Assembly: GCF_000970305.1 (NCBI RefSeq)
Contig: NZ_CP009517.1
Location: forward strand, 1,178,001-1,242,000
Length of the DNA: 64,000 bases
Reading direction: 5' to 3'
Source of the DNA: Methanosarcina barkeri 3
Lineage (GTDB): Archaea; Halobacteriota; Methanosarcinia; Methanosarcinales; Methanosarcinaceae
Positions 1,046-13,804 of this stretch are shown in pieces (the first letter of the stretch is position 1; each line of letters starts with the position of its first letter). The translations under genes and the position numbers were made by a program. The notes beneath the pieces are model-generated. The model was not told the DNA's origin, did no database searches, and saw only the letters and a list, made by a program, of their open reading frames with translations.

Positions 1046-2527
1046 CTACATATCTTGTACTTCATCTAGATTACGGACATTAGCTAATTTATACATAAGA
1101 TCATACTTAGGCAGGGGCATTTTTAGCAATTCTGAAGCATTCACCTGAGTGCTTCCATTAATTATTCGAAAATACTCATCAACAATATCTGAAGTTAAAA
1201 AAGCACATAGACAATTTACTTCATTGACATCTAAATCACGGTTGATACCACATATATAGTTAAGATGATTTTCAAAACCAACTAACTTAAAGTTTTTAAA
1301 CTCTTTCCGTAGAAAAGGGGCTGCAAATATTCTTTTTTTAGAACATTTAGAAGTCAATCGTTTCATTAAAACGTAATTTTTAACGGGAATAAGAACCCTG
1401 GAAGTTTTTTTATTTACATTAATGCCTCTTTTTTTATTGAAATTCTCGGGATTTAAGTTAACACCATTTTTCTCTAGATTTTGTAACCATATTAATGGAA
1501 CGCAATCTTTTTCAGAATAGTCCTCTCGCAAATTTTCCTTTGTTCTGAAATCTACTACCTTTCCAGTTGAGACCGTCATTCCAAAGTCTTCCAGCTTATG
1601 TTCCCAAGAATCTACTATGCGAATTATTTTTAGATCTTTTTCTGACGTAGGAATTCTAATGTAATTTTCCCCATTTTTCGAAAAAATAATATCTGAGAAT
1701 GTTGCTTCAATCTTAAAGAAATCCTCAAATTCTTTGCTGTAACTAGAACTCACAACTGTGCCACGTTCACCGGGAAATTTTTTTATAGCTTTAAAAATAA
1801 TATTTTCCTGATGAACTTCATTGTCGTCAAATATATTAGTTCTTGATTTAAATAGATGAATATTCTCAAAATGTAAATTCTCCACAAGCCATCTTCTTGT
1901 TTTCTTAAAATGAAGTCCAGAGCAGAAGCTTCTTGGAACAATAAATATCATTTCTCCGTTTTTCTTAAGCATTTTTGCCACAATAAGCATAAATAGCGAA
2001 TATATATTTGGAGAATCTAGCTTCAGATGATCAACAGCTAAACTTTCAGCTGAATCTTTTCTCAGCTTATAGTAAGGAGGATTAGAAATAGCTAAATCAT
2101 ATTTCCTTTTATAGTGATTAGCATTATCCAGAATAAAATTGGATTCATAGATGTTAAAACTCAATTCATGACCATGCTTTTCAAACACATTTTTGCATTC
2201 TGACATTAAACATTCTAAATAAGGTACTACCTCTGAATCTTGTTCATAACAATCAATTGTTAAATTAAGTTTATTTTTGGACTCTAGAATAATTCTATCA
2301 CATATTGCTGCCGATAATATACCTGTTCCAGCCCCAGGATCAAGTAATTTTATTTCAGCATGTCTCAAATCTAATAAACTTGCCATAAAAGAAGCTACTT
2401 TTTTGTTAGTGAAAAACTGACCTTTTTCTTTTCTCTTCTCAACCGAATAGATTTTACGAAAAGAATCACTTAACTCAACAGAGTAATCTAACAAACTGCA
2501 GTTTTCTTTTTTTCGTGGCATTTCCAT
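1046..2527 (-). CDS. N6-adenine DNA methyltransferase (Eco57I/TaqI-like)
   Basis: This is a class I SAM-dependent gamma-type DNA adenine methyltransferase. Counting from a TTG at 2539, residues 40-44 are GQFFT (motif X), 67-74 are DPGAGTGI (SAM-binding motif I) and 153-156 are NPPY (catalytic motif IV). The C-terminal half, about 270-490, would be the target-recognition part. No nuclease motif is seen, so it is a methylase only and not a fused type IIG enzyme. The ATG at 2527, with GGTGA a few bases upstream, is preferred over the TTG at 2539. It lies 257 bp downstream of the HNH gene on the same strand. It may protect host DNA from that nuclease, or it may be an independent solitary methylase. 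Confidence 0.85.
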   Translation of the reverse strand: MEMPRKKENCSLLDYSVELSDSFRKIYSVEKRKEKGQFFTNKKVASFMASLLDLRHAEIKLLDPGAGTGILSAAICDRIILESKNKLNLTIDCYEQDSEVVPYLECLMSECKNVFEKHGHELSFNIYESNFILDNANHYKRKYDLAISNPPYYKLRKDSAESLAVDHLKLDSPNIYSLFMLIVAKMLKKNGEMIFIVPRSFCSGLHFKKTRRWLVENLHFENIHLFKSRTNIFDDNEVHQENIIFKAIKKFPGERGTVVSSSYSKEFEDFFKIEATFSDIIFSKNGENYIRIPTSEKDLKIIRIVDSWEHKLEDFGMTVSTGKVVDFRTKENLREDYSEKDCVPLIWLQNLEKNGVNLNPENFNKKRGINVNKKTSRVLIPVKNYVLMKRLTSKCSKKRIFAAPFLRKEFKNFKLVGFENHLNYICGINRDLDVNEVNCLCAFLTSDIVDEYFRIINGSTQVNASELLKMPLPKYDLMYKLANVRNLDEVQDM

Positions 2528-2795
2528 CAGGTTCACCAAAGTAGTTTTTTAATCAGAAGGAGTACTTTTTTAAAAACAGATAACAGATATTATGACACTA
2601 TCTAGTTTATCTAGCTCAAATAAAATAACTTCTATTTATAGTATTATTTATAAAGTCTCTTATTAAAAGATTTATTTGACTCATGTCCATTCATTCTCTA
2701 TTATTAAAACAAGAGAACCCTTAATCTGAGAATGTTTTAAGTGGTTGAATATTTAATTACCGACTTTATGGCATTTCACTTTCAATTCTGCCTAG

Positions 2796-3407
2796 TTATT
2801 TCGACTGTTCGTTTTTTAATTCCTCAATATATTCAGTATACTCAATCAGTACTTCCAAAAATTCTTTGGTATTTTCATTCAATTTTCCAATTTTGTGAAG
2901 TTCTTTTAATTTTACGATTCTTTTTTCCAAGCGACAGAGATTCCATATTAGCGGGTGCCTTCTCAGACTTAAACCGAGCCTACTGTACATATAGTTGCCT
3001 AAAGGTGTAAGAGGAATAATTTCTCCTAAGTCGTTTCTCATAAATTGCTGTCCATATGTAGGGTCGCATGGATCAATGTATCCTTTAATACCATCATTAT
3101 GGACATTTTCATTTCCTGTTGGCCAATCTGCCCTCTTTTTATTATTACAGTAAAAGCATGAATAAACTAAATTATTGTAACTTTCTTCTGAAATGTTAAC
3201 TAGAATCTTTCGAGGTACGAAATGATCAATATGAAATACTCTTTTTCCTCCTCCCCAACACTCTTCATCTCCACAATATCCGCAGCATTTTTTGAAATCT
3301 TGCCTCAAATCTTCTTTATAAAGTCTGTATTTTGAAACATGTCTAGGGCTAGGTCTTCTTTGAGGTTGAACATTTCTGAAATCATTCATTTCTTTCAAGT
3401 TTTTCAA
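2796..3407 (-). CDS. HNH endonuclease
   Basis: The protein has up to 203 residues with a zinc-bound HNH (beta-beta-alpha-metal) nuclease core. CGYCGDEEC supplies the first Cys pair, HIDHFVPR carries the catalytic His and Asp, and a YNNLVYSCFYCNNKK segment carries the Asn and the second Cys pair. The remaining C-terminal part is helical and charged and contains no domain I recognise. The start is uncertain: TTG at 3407 has GGTGG about nine bases upstream, while ATG at 3389 overlaps the stop of the receiver gene. Either way the gene overlaps its upstream neighbour, which implies translational coupling. It is the likely effector of the three-gene unit. It resembles PtuB-type nucleases only in the HNH core. 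Confidence 0.85.
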   Translation of the reverse strand: MKNLKEMNDFRNVQPQRRPSPRHVSKYRLYKEDLRQDFKKCCGYCGDEECWGGGKRVFHIDHFVPRKILVNISEESYNNLVYSCFYCNNKKRADWPTGNENVHNDGIKGYIDPCDPTYGQQFMRNDLGEIIPLTPLGNYMYSRLGLSLRRHPLIWNLCRLEKRIVKLKELHKIGKLNENTKEFLEVLIEYTEYIEELKNEQSK

Positions 3408-4020
3408 TTATTTTGTCCACCTTTTCTATTAATTCGCATAATTTTTTTAAGCTTTTTGTATCTTTTAAAGTTATTGGAGTAACACCCAATTTGCTTGTTG
3501 TCTCTTCCAGAAAATAATCAAGTCTTAAAAGTTCTTCTTCCTCTTTAATAGTTAATTCATTCTTGAGAGAAAGTTCTCTATGTCTTTTTTCTTTCTGTTC
3601 TAATTCAAACTTGTATTTTTTTATTTTATTTTCTATCCTGGTAACCATAATATCAAGATTGTTAGAAACCAACTCTTTATCAAAAATAAGGTCATCTAAT
3701 GATTCATCGGATTCAGAAATGGCTTCGTCTTCATGGGCAGTAATCATGTACATTGGAAAATTAAGACGTTGCCTGTTTAAAGTCTCAAGAATTTCGTTAC
3801 CATTAAAGTCTATTTCAAGATTTTCTTTTAACCTGTAGTCGACTACAATTATATCTAAATGAGTTGTATATATCCAGCTAATTACATCTTCCATTGTTGT
3901 GGAACTATCAATTGGTAGAATTTCTATATCAAAATAATCTGAAAACTGTTGCTGGAATAAAATAACATCGTCCTCGCTTTCATCGATGTAACCAACTTTA
4001 TACTTTTTGTATTCAGCCAT
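3382..4020 (-). CDS. response regulator receiver-domain protein
   Basis: The 212-residue protein has an N-terminal receiver (REC) fold. The conserved residues are in place: acidic pocket D13/E14 (GYIDESEDD), phosphoacceptor D61 (IVVDYRL), T94 (MITAHED) and K115 (IFDKEL). After about residue 125 there is a highly charged helical or coiled-coil stretch (about 125-212) instead of a DNA-binding output domain. This suggests the output is a protein-protein contact. The gene starts 4 bp after the kinase-like gene ends and overlaps the HNH gene at its 3' end. The simplest inference is that it receives phosphate from the upstream GHKL protein and controls the HNH nuclease. Confidence 0.85.
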   Translation of the reverse strand: MAEYKKYKVGYIDESEDDVILFQQQFSDYFDIEILPIDSSTTMEDVISWIYTTHLDIIVVDYRLKENLEIDFNGNEILETLNRQRLNFPMYMITAHEDEAISESDESLDDLIFDKELVSNNLDIMVTRIENKIKKYKFELEQKEKRHRELSLKNELTIKEEEELLRLDYFLEETTSKLGVTPITLKDTKSLKKLCELIEKVDKIIEKLERNE

Positions 4021-4024
4021 ATAA

Positions 4025-6601
4025 TCACTTTTTTTGCTTTGATAGGGGAAACACTATTTGAAGCATAAAGCCAGATTCTGGTTTCAGAATTTTTATATTT
4101 CCGGAGTATTCATCAACGATGTTTTTTACCAACCACATACCTAGCCCTGTGCCAATTACATTTCCAGAACGATCTTTTTTTGTAGTCTCAAAGGCCTTGA
4201 AAATAATCTCAGGATTATCTCTGTAATCCTGAGAGAGCCCGCATCCTGTATCTTTATATAGAACAGTGACTGATTTATCGATAACTTCCCACTTAATTTC
4301 TATAATCCTCTCTTTTGAAGAGCCTTCTCTTTGAAATGCTTCTACTGAATTGACAATTAAATTTGAGAATATACTATCGAAATCGATATCATAAGCTTTT
4401 AATGAACATTTTTCTACTTGAGGATCTAGATTTAATGTTACCTTACGATCTAAAAGAAAACTCCACCACGTTTTTTTAAAAGCAATAAAATATTCATTGA
4501 TATCTATATCTCTACGCTTCCTTCTATCCTTTTTTATCATTAAAATTGAGAAGTTTATCCACTTAATCAACTTATTGTCTTGCTCTTCTATCTTATCTAT
4601 TAGAATGAACGGATTCTCATGTGCTGGTAGGCCTTCTAATTTAGAGGTTTCTAACTGTTCGTGTAAGTATTTCCTCAAATAAGTAGTTCTCTTTCCGAAT
4701 TGAGTTCTAATGTGCTTTAATTCATGTGTAAATGTGGCGACGATTAATCCTGAACTTGCAAGACTTCTAATAAGACGTAATTCTTCTTCCTTTTCTTCCA
4801 GCTCCTGTTTTTGAATCTCATAACCTTCCGCGAGGACTTCAGCTTCTTTTTCTAGTTTTACAAATTCATTCCCTTTAAGAGCTTTAGGGACTATAGAGAT
4901 ACCTTTTGAAGCGTCGGTATCTGAATCGGGGAAATATTTTCGACTTATCTGTTTAATTTTTTTTATTTCTATCCTTTTGCTTGCAAACTCCTCAGCTTTC
5001 TCTTTTGTACTCTCTTTGTCATTTCTTAGCGAATGAAATTGATTGAAAGAGTACATTATGTTGATTCTATCATCTTCAAATTCCTCTATAATCCCAATTA
5101 TTATATTTTTAAATAGATTGAAAGCATCATTTTCTTGTATCCCTTCTCTGCCTGATTTATCTTGGAAACTTGAATTTGCCACTCTAGAAATACTAATGGA
5201 ACCCGAAATTTGATTGGGACGTATTCTCCAACCTGTCCGTTTTTGACCCGCACCCCCTGGACTTATCCCCGCTCGTTCTCCTAATCCAAGCCAATCATTT
5301 TTGCCTAATCCATAAGGGCGTACTAAAAATCCGTCTCTAAAAATTTTCACTCCACCAAATTTATTTAACCATTGCTTTCTTGAAGCGCTAGAGAAAGACT
5401 TGTATGGATATCTAGAATCTTCAGCAGAAGACACATTTTTTAAGAAATAGAATGTGAATGAGAATTCTCCAATCTTATCAAGAATGCGTTTTGCATCATT
5501 ATCTTTAAACCCGGGCACAAGTTTAGCTAGAGTTGTTTCAATAGTGAATTTTTTTTCTTTCAGTGTTTTAAAGTCATAAGGAGATTTCTTCATCCCTTCT
5601 TGTTTAAAAACACCAATATATTCCTTCTCTATTAAATCGACATCTAGTTCATTACGCTCTATTTCCAAAATCACTGTCTTTGAATGGTCATCTAGGTGCC
5701 GTGCAAATACCTTATAGTCAAAATCGTCACAGAACTCTGATGAAATTTCACCATATTCGTTTTCTTGAAGAGAACTAAATAGATAGATTGAAAAAATCGG
5801 AATTTCTTTGGGAGGCACGAGAATCTCTAAGCTTTTAAATATTCTCTCAACTAGATGTTCATCCCATTCATCCGTTAATTTGTTTATTTTTATTATTGTT
5901 CCGCTTTTGAAATTAATATCATTTAAAACTTTAGATAATGGTTCATAATTTTGTGTTAAATCTATTATCTTTTCTTTCAGATCTAAGTTTTCTACAGGTG
6001 TTAATTCTGCTTCAACTTTATCTATTGTTAACCCAGGGCTTTCAAAGTCTGACCAATTCACTTGCCACAAGAAACCTTCCTTCTCTTGTTCAGGCAACGT
6101 ATAAATTTCACAGCTCTTGCCCAGCCTATCAAGCGCAAATCTTCCAATTCCTTTTTCGCCAGTTTTTATGCGTCCATTTTTAGTTTCATACTGAGTATTT
6201 TTGTTATCAGTTCCTATGGTCATCCAATGATCTTGGATTACTTTCTCTGTCATTCCAGACCCGTTGTCGATTATGTATAGATGACAGAAATTTGAAAAAA
6301 AAGAATTAAGTTTTTCAGTATCTTTATAAGAATTATCATTTAGTAAGTAATTCCCATTAATATCTTGTGTGTAAAACAAATCTATTGAGTCAGAAAATCC
6401 ACTAAGTATTAAATATTCTTCCTTTGCAAGAATTGAAGGCGGTAAATGATATTTATTATCAAAGAATAAAATGCAGTTATAAGCATCAGCGTCATAACAA
6501 TTTTTTACAAGCTCAATTATTGCCCCTTCTGCATTTGCAACATTCTCTCTACCTATTAGTCTTGCAGTTCTTGCCGAAACTTTAAATGGTATTCTTGTCA
6601 T
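4025..6601 (-). CDS. dual-GHKL protein: Hsp90/MORC-like ATPase fused to histidine kinase
   Basis: The 858-residue protein has two separate GHKL ATP-binding modules. The N-terminal one has an N-box with E30, N34 and D37 (ELVKNCYDADA), a DNGSGM box near 112 and a glycine lid GEKGIGRFA near 150, as in Hsp90, MutL and MORC ATPases. A middle region of several hundred residues may be the S5-like and sensing part. The C-terminal module is kinase-like: a possible phosphoacceptor block FTHELKHI near 625, N-box NLIVNSVEAF near 750, G1 DTGCGL, F-box IFKAFETTK and G2 GTGLGMWLVK near 820. No transmembrane segment is evident, so it is probably cytosolic. It is the first gene of the unit with the receiver and HNH genes. 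The trigger it senses is unknown. Confidence 0.85.
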   Translation of the reverse strand: MTRIPFKVSARTARLIGRENVANAEGAIIELVKNCYDADAYNCILFFDNKYHLPPSILAKEEYLILSGFSDSIDLFYTQDINGNYLLNDNSYKDTEKLNSFFSNFCHLYIIDNGSGMTEKVIQDHWMTIGTDNKNTQYETKNGRIKTGEKGIGRFALDRLGKSCEIYTLPEQEKEGFLWQVNWSDFESPGLTIDKVEAELTPVENLDLKEKIIDLTQNYEPLSKVLNDINFKSGTIIKINKLTDEWDEHLVERIFKSLEILVPPKEIPIFSIYLFSSLQENEYGEISSEFCDDFDYKVFARHLDDHSKTVILEIERNELDVDLIEKEYIGVFKQEGMKKSPYDFKTLKEKKFTIETTLAKLVPGFKDNDAKRILDKIGEFSFTFYFLKNVSSAEDSRYPYKSFSSASRKQWLNKFGGVKIFRDGFLVRPYGLGKNDWLGLGERAGISPGGAGQKRTGWRIRPNQISGSISISRVANSSFQDKSGREGIQENDAFNLFKNIIIGIIEEFEDDRINIMYSFNQFHSLRNDKESTKEKAEEFASKRIEIKKIKQISRKYFPDSDTDASKGISIVPKALKGNEFVKLEKEAEVLAEGYEIQKQELEEKEEELRLIRSLASSGLIVATFTHELKHIRTQFGKRTTYLRKYLHEQLETSKLEGLPAHENPFILIDKIEEQDNKLIKWINFSILMIKKDRRKRRDIDINEYFIAFKKTWWSFLLDRKVTLNLDPQVEKCSLKAYDIDFDSIFSNLIVNSVEAFQREGSSKERIIEIKWEVIDKSVTVLYKDTGCGLSQDYRDNPEIIFKAFETTKKDRSGNVIGTGLGMWLVKNIVDEYSGNIKILKPESGFMLQIVFPLSKQKK

Positions 6602-7543: not shown

Positions 7544-7953
7544 TCAAAACACCTCTAATATATTACTATATGAATTATCCGTACATACATAAAACAATAT
7601 CTCTGCCGGAGCTTTAGCATTTAATGTACCGAATATCGTATTTCATGCTTATCAATATCTCGCATATAGACATCCATTACATTGATCCGTTTTTGTATTC
7701 TATCCTAAGACAATGTTTCCGTATATTTTACTGCGACATGGTCTACTGCTGCTGGTTGTGTTTTTCATTTTTATTTGAATTAGCAGTTGTGTTTTTGACA
7801 ACTCTAAATGAATGACCTGACTTAAATTAAGCATAATTGAGAAATAGCAGAGATTTTTGCCGCAAAATTAAGAAAAACAGAATTTCCATGTCAATTATTG
7901 CTGAAGTATGAGCTTATAAATCGGATATGTTTGTTTCCCTGTATGGTGATGAA

Positions 7954-8868
7954 ATGACAAAAGCAAGAAACATCGCAATATATGGAAAAGGCGGTATCGG
8001 GAAATCAACTACCTCATCAAATCTTTCAGCGGCTCTTTCTGACCTGGGTCTTACTGTAATGCAAATTGGCTGTGACCCTAAGAGCGACTCCACAAATAAC
8101 CTGAGAGGAGGCAAATCTATTCCTTCCGTTCTTGATGCTATGAGAAGTGGAAAAAGGGTTGAGATTAGCGACATCGTCTATGAGGGGTTCAATGGAATCC
8201 TCTGTGTGGAAGCAGGCGGTCCTGAGCCTGGTGTAGGCTGCGCTGGCAGAGGTATTATTACTGCAATCGAACTTTTAAGGCAAAAAAACGTCTTTGAGGA
8301 ATTTAACCCTGATGTTGTAATTTATGACGTGCTTGGAGACGTTGTCTGTGGAGGATTCTCAATCCCTATCCGTGAAGGTGTTGCAGAACAGGTATACACT
8401 GTTGCATCCTCGGATTTCATGGCAATCTATGCAGCAAATAATCTCTTCAAAGGTATAAGGAAATACGCAAACAACGGCGGTGCCCTTTTCAGCGGAATAA
8501 TTGCAAATTCAATGAACCAGCCTATTCAAAAAGAGATAATAAATGACTTTGCGAGTCAGACAAAAACAACAATCGCAGGGTATGTACCCCGTTCACTTGA
8601 TGTTACAAGGAGTGAACTCAGAGGACAGACTGTAGTTGAACATGCACCTGATTCCGAGCAGGCTGAGATATATAGAGAACTTGCAAGAGGCATTTTGAAT
8701 AACAATAAGAAATATGTTCCTGCTCCTCTTGAGTCCGAAGAACTCAAAACCTGGGCAGAAAGCTGGTCTGATATACTCCTCAAGGAACGGGAACAGGTAA
8801 GTGGACATGAAGGAAAAGTGAAAAACAGTAGCGTTGAAGAAGGAACGCCAATAAGTTCGGAAGCATGA
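7954..8868 (+). CDS. NifH-family (nitrogenase-like) iron protein
   Basis: This is a 304-residue P-loop ATPase of the NifH/BchL/CfbC family, which delivers electrons from a [4Fe-4S] cluster with ATP hydrolysis. Residues 11-18 are GKGGIGKS (Walker A). DPKSDST forms switch I, and C96 (GVGCAGRG) and C132 (DVVCGGF) are the two Cys that bridge the cluster in the homodimer. I choose ATG 7954 over 7927 because GGTGAT precedes it at normal spacing. No NifD/NifK-like or CfbD-like partner and no nifI genes lie nearby, so this is an orphan group IV-type homologue. Candidate roles are CfbC-like F430 synthesis or another unassigned reductase. A charged tail of about 25 residues follows the conserved fold. 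Confidence 0.85.
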
Positions 8869-10209: not shown

Positions 10210-10754
10210 ATTAAAAAATGCTTTTCTGTGTAACTGAATCAAACTTTATTTTATATCCAAATTTTTGATTTTTGAGGTACATAACCTCAATTGTTTTTTT
10301 AGATAACTAAAATTAATAAGTAATTTTAAGAGCTAATCTCTAATTCAAAATCTCTTTTCTGAATCTCAAAATCTCTAATTCAAAATCTCAAATATAAATC
10401 TCAAATATAAATCTCAAGTATTCTACTGGTGAGTAAAAATTCACGACCACAAAGCCAGCTCTTAAAAACTCTTAACGTTGCAAACAAAACTTGTTTTGGA
10501 TAAGCTCAATAATAAACACCTTTATTTTGTTATATAGCACATTCCTGAATTTCCAGTCTGCAATTTAAGCCTCAATCAGTTTCAGAGCTGCTGGATCAGA
10601 GCTGCTGGAGAATTTTCTAAGTTTTACCAAACCAGATTAAAAACAGCTTAAAATGAAACAACCAGGTACAGGTTTATGCTAATTTATATAATAAATTAAA
10701 AGTAAAATAGATAAAAGAAAATATAGAACGGAACCAAAGAGGAATGGTGAAACT
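10210..10754 (+). other. intergenic with short AT-rich direct repeats
   Basis: About 545 bases without a gene. 10330-10420 holds imperfect direct repeats of the type CTCTAATTCAAAAT and CTCAAATATAAAT. The last 90 bases are an AT-rich promoter region leading to GGTGA before the TTG start at 10755. Confidence 0.45.
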
Positions 10755-11339
10755 TTGAAAGCTCTGGTTATTATAGATATGACTAACGATTTCGTGTATG
10801 AGACCTACGAATATGCAGGAACGTTATATGAGGGAAAACTTGTAGCCCCTATGGCAAAGGAAATTGTTGACAAAATAGCCAGGCTAATAATAAAGGTAGT
10901 AAAAGGGGGAACAGTTAGTGTCATCAGAATTCCGAAAGATCACCTCAATGCCTTTATGAACCCGGAACTCGAACTGAAAGCAGCAGAGCTCGGAATCGAT
11001 GAAGTATTCATTACAGGCCTGGTTGAGGAAGTCTGCATATATATTAATAGCCTTGGTTTCCTTGAAAGAGGTTTTCGAACAAACATCGTAAAAGGTTGTA
11101 CAGCTCCTTTTGATGAAGAAAAAGGTAGAGAAGCCTTTAGCGAACTTACGGAATGCGGAGCAAAAATGGTTGACGATATTCCTGATGACATAAAGGTTAT
11201 CCTGCTCCTCGAAGACGAACACAATGAAAATTCCGAAGAAATAAAATCAGGAGACTGGCCACCTCATAATATGAAAGGAACTCCAGGAGCTATGACTGTA
11301 AAGACGATCAGGGATGTGCTTGAGGAAAGGTATAGTTAA
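10755..11339 (+). CDS. isochorismatase/cysteine hydrolase-fold protein with rearranged segments
   Basis: The 194-residue protein keeps the catalytic triad of the isochorismatase/nicotinamidase superfamily: D8 (VIIDMTNDF), K61 (RIPKDHLNAF) and C94 (LVEEVCIY). In ordinary family members the metal-site loop (DxH followed by WPPHxxKGT) lies between the first strand-helix and the catalytic Lys. Here it comes last: D154-E-H156 and WPPH at 168-171 are followed by KGTPGA and a terminal helix. The middle segment has therefore apparently moved to the C-terminus. The TTG start has GGTGA upstream. Hydrolysis of an amide or vinyl ether is the family chemistry. Whether this permuted form is active is unknown. 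Confidence 0.8.
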   Translation: MKALVIIDMTNDFVYETYEYAGTLYEGKLVAPMAKEIVDKIARLIIKVVKGGTVSVIRIPKDHLNAFMNPELELKAAELGIDEVFITGLVEEVCIYINSLGFLERGFRTNIVKGCTAPFDEEKGREAFSELTECGAKMVDDIPDDIKVILLLEDEHNENSEEIKSGDWPPHNMKGTPGAMTVKTIRDVLEERYS

Positions 11340-11510
11340 ATACATCAGGTTTTCTACAGGGAAAAATTTCTGGTTTTCTATTAACATAATTGGATATGTT
11401 AACGGAAGTCACACTCTATTATTCTCTTTTTAGTATCTATAGTTACGCCTGTAATTGTTGCAACAAAAAACTTTATTGTATCTCATTGGGCAGTTGCATT
11501 ATTTAGCCTC

Positions 11511-12116
11511 GTGACTATATATGCAATTATTGTTAAAATCAGTAATTCTGAACATGGCATATATTTGTATACTAAATTTTATCCTGTTAATTTAATTAGA
11601 CATAGCAAAGTAATAAAACTAGTAAAATCAGATCATCAGTTAGAAAAGTTTGATGATGAATTAGTACAAATCGCAGGTAAATTTGATATTTTGCAATACA
11701 ATGATAAATACTACATTCTAAACTATGAGATTTTGGAGAAGTTTTACCAATTTACCGATGTAATACTAGAAAGAGCTACGAGTTACTTTGAAGAGATAAC
11801 AAAAGTCAAGATAATTGAAGGTGAGGACAAGTTATTTTCCTATCTTGTAAGTAATCCTTCACATGCCAGTAAGTTCATAAAAGTTATGTCTTCATCAATA
11901 GTAATCAAAAAGAAAATTCCTAACGAACAGTTAATTTCATTTGTTTCAAGCAATCCTAAACTAAAAGATAATATTGAAACAAATGAAGACAAGACTAAAT
12001 TTAAATTAAAGACAAATAATCATTGTAATTTCTTTATTAAACTGTTAGATGATGATTTTTTAAAATCAGAATTGACACAAGAAGAATATGAAACACTTGC
12101 TAAGAATAATGTTTAA
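11511..12116 (+). CDS. truncated KwaB-like (DUF4868) protein
   Basis: The 201-residue product begins at a GTG with no ribosome binding site, and the frame stays open upstream to 11403. Residues from about 12 on (GIYLYTKFYPV, FDDELVQIAGKFDILQYND, YYILNYEILEKFYQF) resemble the C-terminal half of KwaB/DUF4868 proteins of the Kiwa anti-phage system. That portion is followed by a helical tail. The upstream open stretch encodes a hydrophobic segment of about 40 residues. This may be the end of a KwaA-like membrane protein fused by deletion, or simply a membrane anchor. It sits 2 bp from the rhuM fragment, inside a run of defence-gene relics. It is likely a decayed gene. Confidence 0.55.
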   Translation: MTIYAIIVKISNSEHGIYLYTKFYPVNLIRHSKVIKLVKSDHQLEKFDDELVQIAGKFDILQYNDKYYILNYEILEKFYQFTDVILERATSYFEEITKVKIIEGEDKLFSYLVSNPSHASKFIKVMSSSIVIKKKIPNEQLISFVSSNPKLKDNIETNEDKTKFKLKTNNHCNFFIKLLDDDFLKSELTQEEYETLAKNNV

Positions 12117-12118
12117 AC

Positions 12119-12409
12119 ATGACCGCGAATAAAAACCACCTTTCCAGCAACCAGTCGGATTTCATCCTTTACACTTCAAATGATGGGAAAGTAAAGGTAG
12201 ATGTTGTACTGAAGGATGGAACTGTCTGGCTCACCCAGAAGGCTATGGGGGAACTTTTCGGTAAAGACAGGAGTGTTATTACCAAACATACTCAGAACAT
12301 TTTCAGCAGTGGGGAACTGGATGAAGAAAGCAATGTGCAAAAAATGCACTTTGCATATTCCGCGAGAATGATACGGCAAATCAGGGAGAGTACGGATGAC
12401 TACAACTAA
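12119..12409 (+). pseudogene. internally deleted RhuM-family copy
   Basis: Residues 1 to about 75 match the N-terminal part of RhuM-family proteins (VWLTQKAMGELFGKDRSVITKH). The last 14 residues, MIRQIRESTDDYN and neighbours, are nearly identical to the last residues of the full-length RhuM protein just downstream. The middle, about 250 residues, is missing. The gene is therefore a second rhuM copy that lost its interior. Its final 39 bp are a near-exact direct repeat of 13386-13424. It overlaps the next gene by 14 bp through ATGACTACAACTAA. Confidence 0.7.
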
Positions 12410-13424
12410 GAAACTGCCCGACAACCAGATTACGGTCTATCAGACACCTGAAGGGGACATCAACATTGAGGTGCTCTATGCCAATGAAAACGTCTGGCTG
12501 CCTCAAAAGCGGATGGCAGAGTTATTCGGATGCAGCGCAGACAATATCTCTCTGCACCTTAAAAATATCTACAAAGATAAAGAACTTGATGAAGCTGCAA
12601 CTACCGAGGATTTCTCGGTAGTTCAGACAGAGGGGGAACGCAAGGTAACCCGTACGGTAAAGTGCTATTCCCTCGAAGCCATCATCGCGGTGGGGTACAG
12701 GGTAAACTCGGAACGCGGCATAGAGTTCAGGCAATGGGCAACTTCCATCCTCCAGCAATATATCCACAAAGGTTTTGCCATAGACAGCGACCGTTTCAAG
12801 TATGGTTCCCGGTTCAGTACACGATATTTCGACGACCTGCTCGAAGAGATTCGGGATATCCGTTCCAGTGAGCGGATGATGTACCAGAAGATAACCGATA
12901 TTTACGCCACTGCTATTGACTATTCGCCAAAGACGGAGGACACGCGCAAATTCTTCGCCACGGTACAGAACAAGCTCCACTTTGCCATTACCGGACAGAC
13001 TGCCGCAGAAATCATAATCACACGGGCCAGAAGCGATAAGCAGAACATGGAGCTGACGTCATGGCGAAAAGGGTCCGACGGCAAAATCATGCCGCGTGAC
13101 GTTACCATAGCAAAAAATTACCTGGATAAAACAGAACTTGACCATTTGAACCGCATAGTCAACATGTACATCGATTATGCGGAATTACAGGCTATTCGCA
13201 ATAAGCCGATGTATACGAAGGACTGGATTGAAAAACTGGATGCTTTCCTGAAGTTCAGCGAATACGAAATCCTCACCGATGCCGGAAAGATCAGCCACGA
13301 AGTTGCTCTTGACCTGGCTGCAAGGGAATATGAAACATTCAGGAAAATTCAGGACAAAAATTACATCTCCGATTTTGACAAAGAAGTACGGCGAATCAGG
13401 GAGAATACGGATGACTACAACTAA
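12396..13424 (+). CDS. rhuM: RhuM-family protein (virulence RhuM-like)
   Basis: The 342-residue full-length RhuM-family protein has an N-terminal predicted DNA-binding region (VWLPQKRMAELFGCSADNISLH), a central block CYSLEAIIAVGYRVNSERGIEFRQWA split over about 95-120, and a C-terminal helical domain. RhuM proteins are common inside type I restriction-modification operons between hsdS and hsdR. Their molecular role is not settled. Here it is followed directly by an hsdR relic, which supports that context. Both ends overlap neighbours through the same 14-bp ATGACTACAACTAA, so the start and stop are translationally coupled. The GC content is clearly higher than in the surrounding genes, which suggests transfer. 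Confidence 0.85.
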   Translation: MTTTKKLPDNQITVYQTPEGDINIEVLYANENVWLPQKRMAELFGCSADNISLHLKNIYKDKELDEAATTEDFSVVQTEGERKVTRTVKCYSLEAIIAVGYRVNSERGIEFRQWATSILQQYIHKGFAIDSDRFKYGSRFSTRYFDDLLEEIRDIRSSERMMYQKITDIYATAIDYSPKTEDTRKFFATVQNKLHFAITGQTAAEIIITRARSDKQNMELTSWRKGSDGKIMPRDVTIAKNYLDKTELDHLNRIVNMYIDYAELQAIRNKPMYTKDWIEKLDAFLKFSEYEILTDAGKISHEVALDLAAREYETFRKIQDKNYISDFDKEVRRIRENTDDYN

Positions 13425-13804
13425 AATCACCGAGTCCGAAATAGAAAAATTCGCCATCGAACTCCTCGAGCACCAGGGTTACCAGTACATCTATGCCCCT
13501 GACATTGCCCCGGATAGCGATACTCCTGAACGGGATAGATTTGAGGATGTAATATTGTTAGAGCGCCTGCGAAAAGCCATTGGCAGGATAAATCCCGACA
13601 TTCCGGCAGATGCAAGGGAAGATGCTATCAGGCAGGTTCAACGCCTGAACTCTCCTGAACTGATATCTAACAACGAAGCGTTTCACAGGATGCTTACGGA
13701 GGGTATAAACGTAAGCTACCGAAAAGACGGGGCAGACAGGGGAGATCTGAACAGTGCTTAAGCAGGCGGAATTAATTGCAGATGAAATAACAAAGGGTGT
13801 TTAA
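13411..13804 (+). pseudogene. hsdR: type I restriction hsdR relic (both ends, interior deleted)
   Basis: The frame from ATG 13411 (MTTTKITESEIEKFAIELL) reads about 110 residues typical of the N-terminus of HsdR, the endonuclease/translocase subunit of type I restriction enzymes. It ends at TAA 13759-13761, soon after SYRKDGADRGD. In another frame, 13751-13801 encodes TVLKQAELIADEITKGV and then stops, which fits the extreme C-terminus of HsdR. The PD-(D/E)xK nuclease and helicase motors are gone, so a deletion of more than 2 kb has joined the ends. No hsdM or hsdS is present. Confidence 0.75.

Follow-up and report, generated by a model that had tools for sequence, protein, structure and literature searches.

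The closest known system to the gene described here is the nicotinamidase/pyrazinamidase PncA (PDB 3s2s, 3o90, 5zn8/6a8l, 1ilw/1im5, 3pl1), a member of the isochorismatase-like cysteine hydrolase superfamily (Pfam PF00857). PncA carries the catalytic triad Asp8, Lys96 and Cys138, and its metal is bound by Asp49, His51 and His71, plus His57 in M. tuberculosis. The loop 51–71 forms the lid, Trp68 and Phe13 line the pocket and the amides of Ala134 and Cys138 make up the oxyanion hole; the sheet of the superfamily consists of six parallel strands (PMC3025910). The DxH and PxH motifs which flank the metal region are a nicotinamidase fingerprint (PMC3581539). YcaC-like and N-carbamoylsarcosine-amidase-like hydrolases (1yac, 4wgf, 3eef) share the Asp-Lys-Cys core and match the present protein by fold and sequence in the Lys-Cys region. 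Their strand order is normal and they score below the nicotinamidases. A natural non-cyclic permutation has been described between AML1/core binding factor and riboflavin synthase, with structural similarity over 42 residues (PMC2096629). There are very few documented cases of a non-cyclic permutation that keeps the active site and can be recognised from sequence.

In a 64,000-nucleotide stretch of Methanosarcina barkeri 3 DNA (the window), one gene encodes a PF00857 relative with its segments in another order. Taken as a whole, the gene product is probably best explained as a functional metal-dependent cysteine amidohydrolase, nearest to nicotinamidase/PncA, whose β2-lid-helix block has been moved to the C-terminus.

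Segment order of the hydrolase

The features of the gene are collected in Table 1. An earlier note on this DNA had placed D8, K61 and C94 in the usual order and the DxH/WPPHxxKGT segment after residue 150; coordinates, reading frame and residues were confirmed. The segment normally lies between strand 1 and the Lys, as the note had it, and this is the arrangement in PncA (Asp8...Asp49/His51/His71...Lys96...Cys138; PMC3025910). In contrast to PncA, the motifs in the single chain encoded here run D...K...C...DxH...WPPHxxKGT, and the metal/lid block makes up the last 50 residues. The Lys strand comes straight after helix 1, the metal segment being absent between them. The Asp-Lys-Cys triad is in the usual superfamily order and is invariant across orthologues and relatives.

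Table 1. Features of the permuted hydrolase gene, in positions of the window.
Feature	Position	Strand	Remarks
Ribosome-binding-like motif GGTGAAA	10746..10752	+	2 nt 5' of the TTG start; near-invariant before every orthologue's start
Permuted isochorismatase-superfamily cysteine hydrolase, 194 aa	10755..11339	+	TTG start, TAA stop; ORF, Pfam PF00857 E=9.5e-15, orthologues
Strand 1, carrying D8 (10776-10778, general base) and F13, followed by helix 1; residues 1-52	10755..10910	+	Alignment with normal-order relatives
Lys strand carrying K61 (10935-10937), Cys loop/helix carrying C94 (11034-11036), and strands 5 and 6; residues 53-144	10911..11186	+	PF00857 profile positions 90-172
Linker joining strand 6 to the transposed strand, residues 140-145 (DDIPDD)	11172..11189	+	Orthologue comparison
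Transposed block, residues 145-194: strand 2, D154-x-H156 (11214-11222), lid, W168-P-P-H171 (11256-11267), KGTPGA, terminal helix	11187..11336	+	Block-only profile, reordering and shuffle controls

The PF00857 match scored 55.6 bits against a cut-off of 27 and was best over residues 58-140, corresponding to profile positions 90-172. The collinear strand order of PF00857, with strand 2 between the Asp and the Lys, is not found here, the strand-2 block being residues 145-194; the product is a permuted variant of the family rather than a standard member. Since standard profiles cover mainly residues 58-140, annotation pipelines would misread the protein as a truncated or metal-free isochorismatase. 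The upstream GGTGAAA motif and the TTG start were found at all orthologues, with an occasional base change in the motif (e.g. GGTGGAA). The linker is six residues long in 26 of the 29 orthologues and seven in the remaining three.

Searches with phmmer against PDB 3s2s, 3o90 and 5zn8 gave three matching pieces that are out of order; reading along 3s2s, the stretches of the query run 2-34, then 144-187, then 58-133. In a reordering test, residues 145-194 were placed after residue 51. The Pfam score rose from 55.6 to 69.1 bits and a single continuous match over 3-190 was obtained. The PDB scores increased likewise, with matches near full length (3s2s from 38.8 to 55.3, 3o90 from 36.6 to 53.2, 5zn8 from 35.9 to 53.3 and 1ilw from 30.5 to 41.5 bits). 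The out-of-order pieces and the gains on reordering bear out the internal segment transposition that had been proposed from the sequence. The strand order 1-3-4-5-6-2 is a non-cyclic permutation. A circular permutation was considered and rejected, as this order is not a rotation of 1-2-3-4-5-6, and the route by which circular permutations arise (duplication, fusion, end trimming) cannot by itself yield it. The order of elements in the AML1/riboflavin synthase case is likewise unreachable by circular permutation; unlike in that case, sequence homology is plain here and the catalytic residues are kept.

Predicted fold and connectivity

AlphaFold models were computed from an orthologues-only alignment (pLDDT 69, pTM 0.74) and after addition of 14 normal-order relatives (pLDDT 82.3, pTM 0.82; the mean pLDDT of the five models differed by no more than 1.6 units). 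The added relatives align to the strand 1-helix 1 region and to the Lys-Cys core, with their own metal segment left as an insertion. Strands were predicted at residues 2-7, 55-60, 83-89, 108-117, 137-139 and 146-153. Mean pLDDT was 94 for residues 141-150 and only 60-76 for blocks past residue 150, in the metal-loop part. In Foldseek searches nicotinamidases came first (E 4e-8, about 20% identity); the TM-score of about 0.58 by sequential alignment is what would be expected of a canonical core combined with one quarter of the chain that an in-order alignment cannot match. That the protein keeps a nicotinamidase-like fold with new connections, as had been suggested, is thus supported by the models for the core but not for the placement of the moved strand.

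The superfamily sheet has the order 321456, with strand 6 at the edge opposite strand 2. Strand 6 is retained in the permuted protein according to the alignment with normal-order relatives. By our own geometric estimate, the 6-7-residue linker spans about 25 Å at most, and the distance between the end of strand 6 and the start of the strand-2 slot (about four strand spacings laterally, then back to the bottom of the sheet, around the helix layer) is at least that long; the linker would be too short for the block to reach the canonical slot of its own chain. With strand 6 kept and a linker of this length, the block would most likely complete the active site of a partner subunit. We tentatively propose, at rather less than even confidence, that a hydrolase which had been self-contained became, through the transposition, an obligate segment-swapped oligomer; the triad would come from one subunit and the metal site from the other.

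In a competing arrangement of the same enzyme, the block would fold back onto its own chain and complete the active site there. It would either enter the canonical strand-2 slot by an unusual crossover or take part in an exchange of slots, with the Lys strand beside strand 1 and the metal strand at the edge. The linker estimate above speaks against such an arrangement. The models are, on the other side, confident around the linker and the new strand, and a breakpoint scan, with its optimum near 52-58 and 146-152, was best when residues 53-58 were taken as the old strand 2, so that strand slots may have been exchanged. The optimum lies within two similar hydrophobic strands, leaving the exact junction uncertain by about six residues. 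Self-insertion is a possible but doubtful reading, and the swap between subunits is ranked somewhat above it.

Active site, conservation and substrate

The equivalents of the PncA residues are D8, K61 and C94 for the triad, D154, H156 and H171 for the metal ligands, W168 and F13 for the pocket and V90 for Ala134. The nicotinamidase DxH/PxH metal motif is present as D154/H156 and P169-P-H171. The protein thus has in common with PncA the D-K-C triad, the DxH...PxH motif, the lid Trp, the pocket Phe, a KGTPGA-like stretch after the metal loop and the predicted core fold. At the oxyanion position it has Val where PncA has Ala, and the nucleophile is followed by CI rather than CV. L152 takes the place of PncA Thr47, which bonds Asp8, and E91 or D91 that of the usual Thr after the oxyanion residue.

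With these active-site equivalents present, metal-dependent amidase chemistry is expected, and the product is probably an active amidase of this kind. By analogy with PncA, D8 would activate C94, K61 would stabilise and an acyl-enzyme would form. The metal, held by D154, H156 and H171 and perhaps by E161 or E162 as an acidic fourth ligand, would orient the substrate, and W168 and F13 would line the pocket. In M. tuberculosis, Ala134Val PncA has none or very low activity (PMC3025910); because V90 occupies the Ala134 position, comparison with PncA suggests a substrate that may differ from nicotinamide. The NCBIfam nicotinamidase equivalog NF008623 gave 29 bits against a cut-off of 174, both as is and reordered.

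The permuted form was found in 26 of 31 Methanosarcina genomes (one copy being split over two contigs), which answers the question whether the same order recurs in the genus, and also in four sister-genus genomes; nearly all copies are full length. Five Methanosarcina genomes are without the gene, which makes it dispensable. D8, F13, K61, C94, D154, H156, W168, P170 and H171 are invariant in a 21-sequence orthologue alignment, in which the others are 69-95% identical to the query. D8 and F13 are invariant in all 35 sequences of a wider alignment that includes normal-order relatives. The spacings D-K (53), K-C (33) and D..H (17) are the same in 29 of 29 orthologues. Nei-Gojobori dN/dS was about 0.07-0.16 for the whole gene and 0.04-0.13 for the moved block. 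Because order, residues and spacings are conserved and dN/dS is low, the gene is, as judged from sequence evolution, old and functional, and its moved part is under constraint. The genus-wide set of natural variants makes fold connectivity, subunit exchange and catalysis testable in one small enzyme.

It had also been suggested that the protein may be inactive. A loss of hydrolase activity with the fold kept for binding or regulation would accord with the unusual connectivity, with the substitutions at the oxyanion-hole and Thr47 positions and with the species that are without the gene. It is disfavoured by the triad, metal ligands and pocket Phe and Trp, all of which are invariant while the rest has diverged to about 70% identity, and by the purifying selection on the moved block; we consider it unlikely.

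Synonymous divergence in the first 52 codons (10755-10910) is far below that of the rest of the gene in several closely related pairs (for L005, for example, 0.03 compared with 0.44-0.47), which suggests recombination or nucleotide-level constraint. In one sister-genus genome a decayed second copy of the permuted gene was observed (L029, G035:C40:15505-15771), covering residues 104-192 and containing three stops.

Origin of the moved block and genomic surroundings

Against a normal-order profile, made from 15 archaeal relatives that were picked up through their Lys-Cys core matches, the protein scored 74.5 bits as is and 88.1 bits reordered. Shuffling the block 200 times without changing its place gave no score above 70.2 bits. 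A block-only profile of 12 orthologues and 50 positions was run against 177,635 PDB sequences. The top four matches were 3pl1, 1ilw, 3r2j and 3eef, mostly at the metal-site segment, among six matches up to E = 10 that included 3s2s and one unrelated Pol chain. In the PncA match to this profile, the stretch SSWPPHCVSGTPGA aligns with SGDWPPHNMKGTPGA, and WPPHxxKGTPGA of the moved block matches PncA WPPHCVSGTPGA.

The similarity could in principle be a chance likeness of metal motifs, the C-terminal block being unrelated to strand 2 and the real metal segment simply lost. The moved block alone has no match in Pfam and its best PDB E-value is only 0.003; but the best-ranked PDB matches are superfamily members hit mostly at the homologous segment, reordering raises the scores where shuffled blocks do not, and the long motif is shared with PncA, which together make chance very improbable. 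The earlier note had left room for a coincidental C-terminal similarity, and the segment-wise profile alignment argues otherwise: the profiles indicate that the block is homologous to the nicotinamidase metal segment, beyond what chance would give.

No permuted isochorismatase subfamily, the other case that the note had foreseen, was found in Pfam, NCBIfam, the PDB or the literature searched. Outside the Methanosarcinaceae, no permuted relatives were found in viral contigs, plasmids, the complete class (238 genomes) or 393 sampled genomes of the phylum. Other relatives in the class and phylum sample match about residues 58-140 (the Lys-Cys core) only, and those examined in full are all of normal order. 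A pattern scan over genomes of 84,980 species, which reaches close relatives only, recovered only Methanosarcina and its kin. In an ancestor of Methanosarcina and the sister genus, the block would have left its place between helix 1 and the Lys strand and become C-terminal, probably in a single event. Two normal-order paralogues of the same genome were rejected as block donors, as they match the Lys-Cys core only, at 24-26% identity. Direct repeats in 10700-11400 gave no convincing pairing of the two breakpoints as a rearrangement scar. An assembly or annotation artefact, a rearrangement recent to a single genome, or a pseudogene has next to no probability and is ruled out by 30 independently assembled genomes, some complete and some draft, which share the segment order at about 69-98% identity, together with the dN/dS values.

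The convergent downstream neighbours of the gene (MscS-like channel, DUF432, CorA-like) are common to 14-15 of 19 genomes, and the upstream side is variable. A gene for aldehyde:ferredoxin oxidoreductase (AOR) lies directly upstream on the same strand in four genomes (orthologue loci L076, L079, L080, L087). In at least three of these (L079, L080, L087) a ThiS/MoaD-like gene separates it from the permuted hydrolase; at L082 and L083 this pair sits about 7 kb from the hydrolase. A function based on such an operon was rejected, the arrangement occurring in some species only and being too patchy to indicate a substrate.

In the window, the gene is separated from its usual downstream neighbours by a KwaB-like piece, RhuM and an HsdR fragment. 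These form a remnant defence cluster at 11511-13761: the KwaB-like piece matches only positions 117-314 of a 320-position model, the gene for the RhuM family protein has a short RhuM-like ORF in front of it, and the HsdR fragment is N-terminal. Upstream of the hydrolase gene, a NifH/frxC-family ATPase gene stands alone at 7927-8868 (PF00142, E=8e-101). The region 1046-6601 holds a type II methyltransferase-like gene (1046-2539), a putative HNH-type ORF recognised by eye (2796-3407), a receiver-like ORF and a large histidine-kinase-like ATPase on the minus strand.
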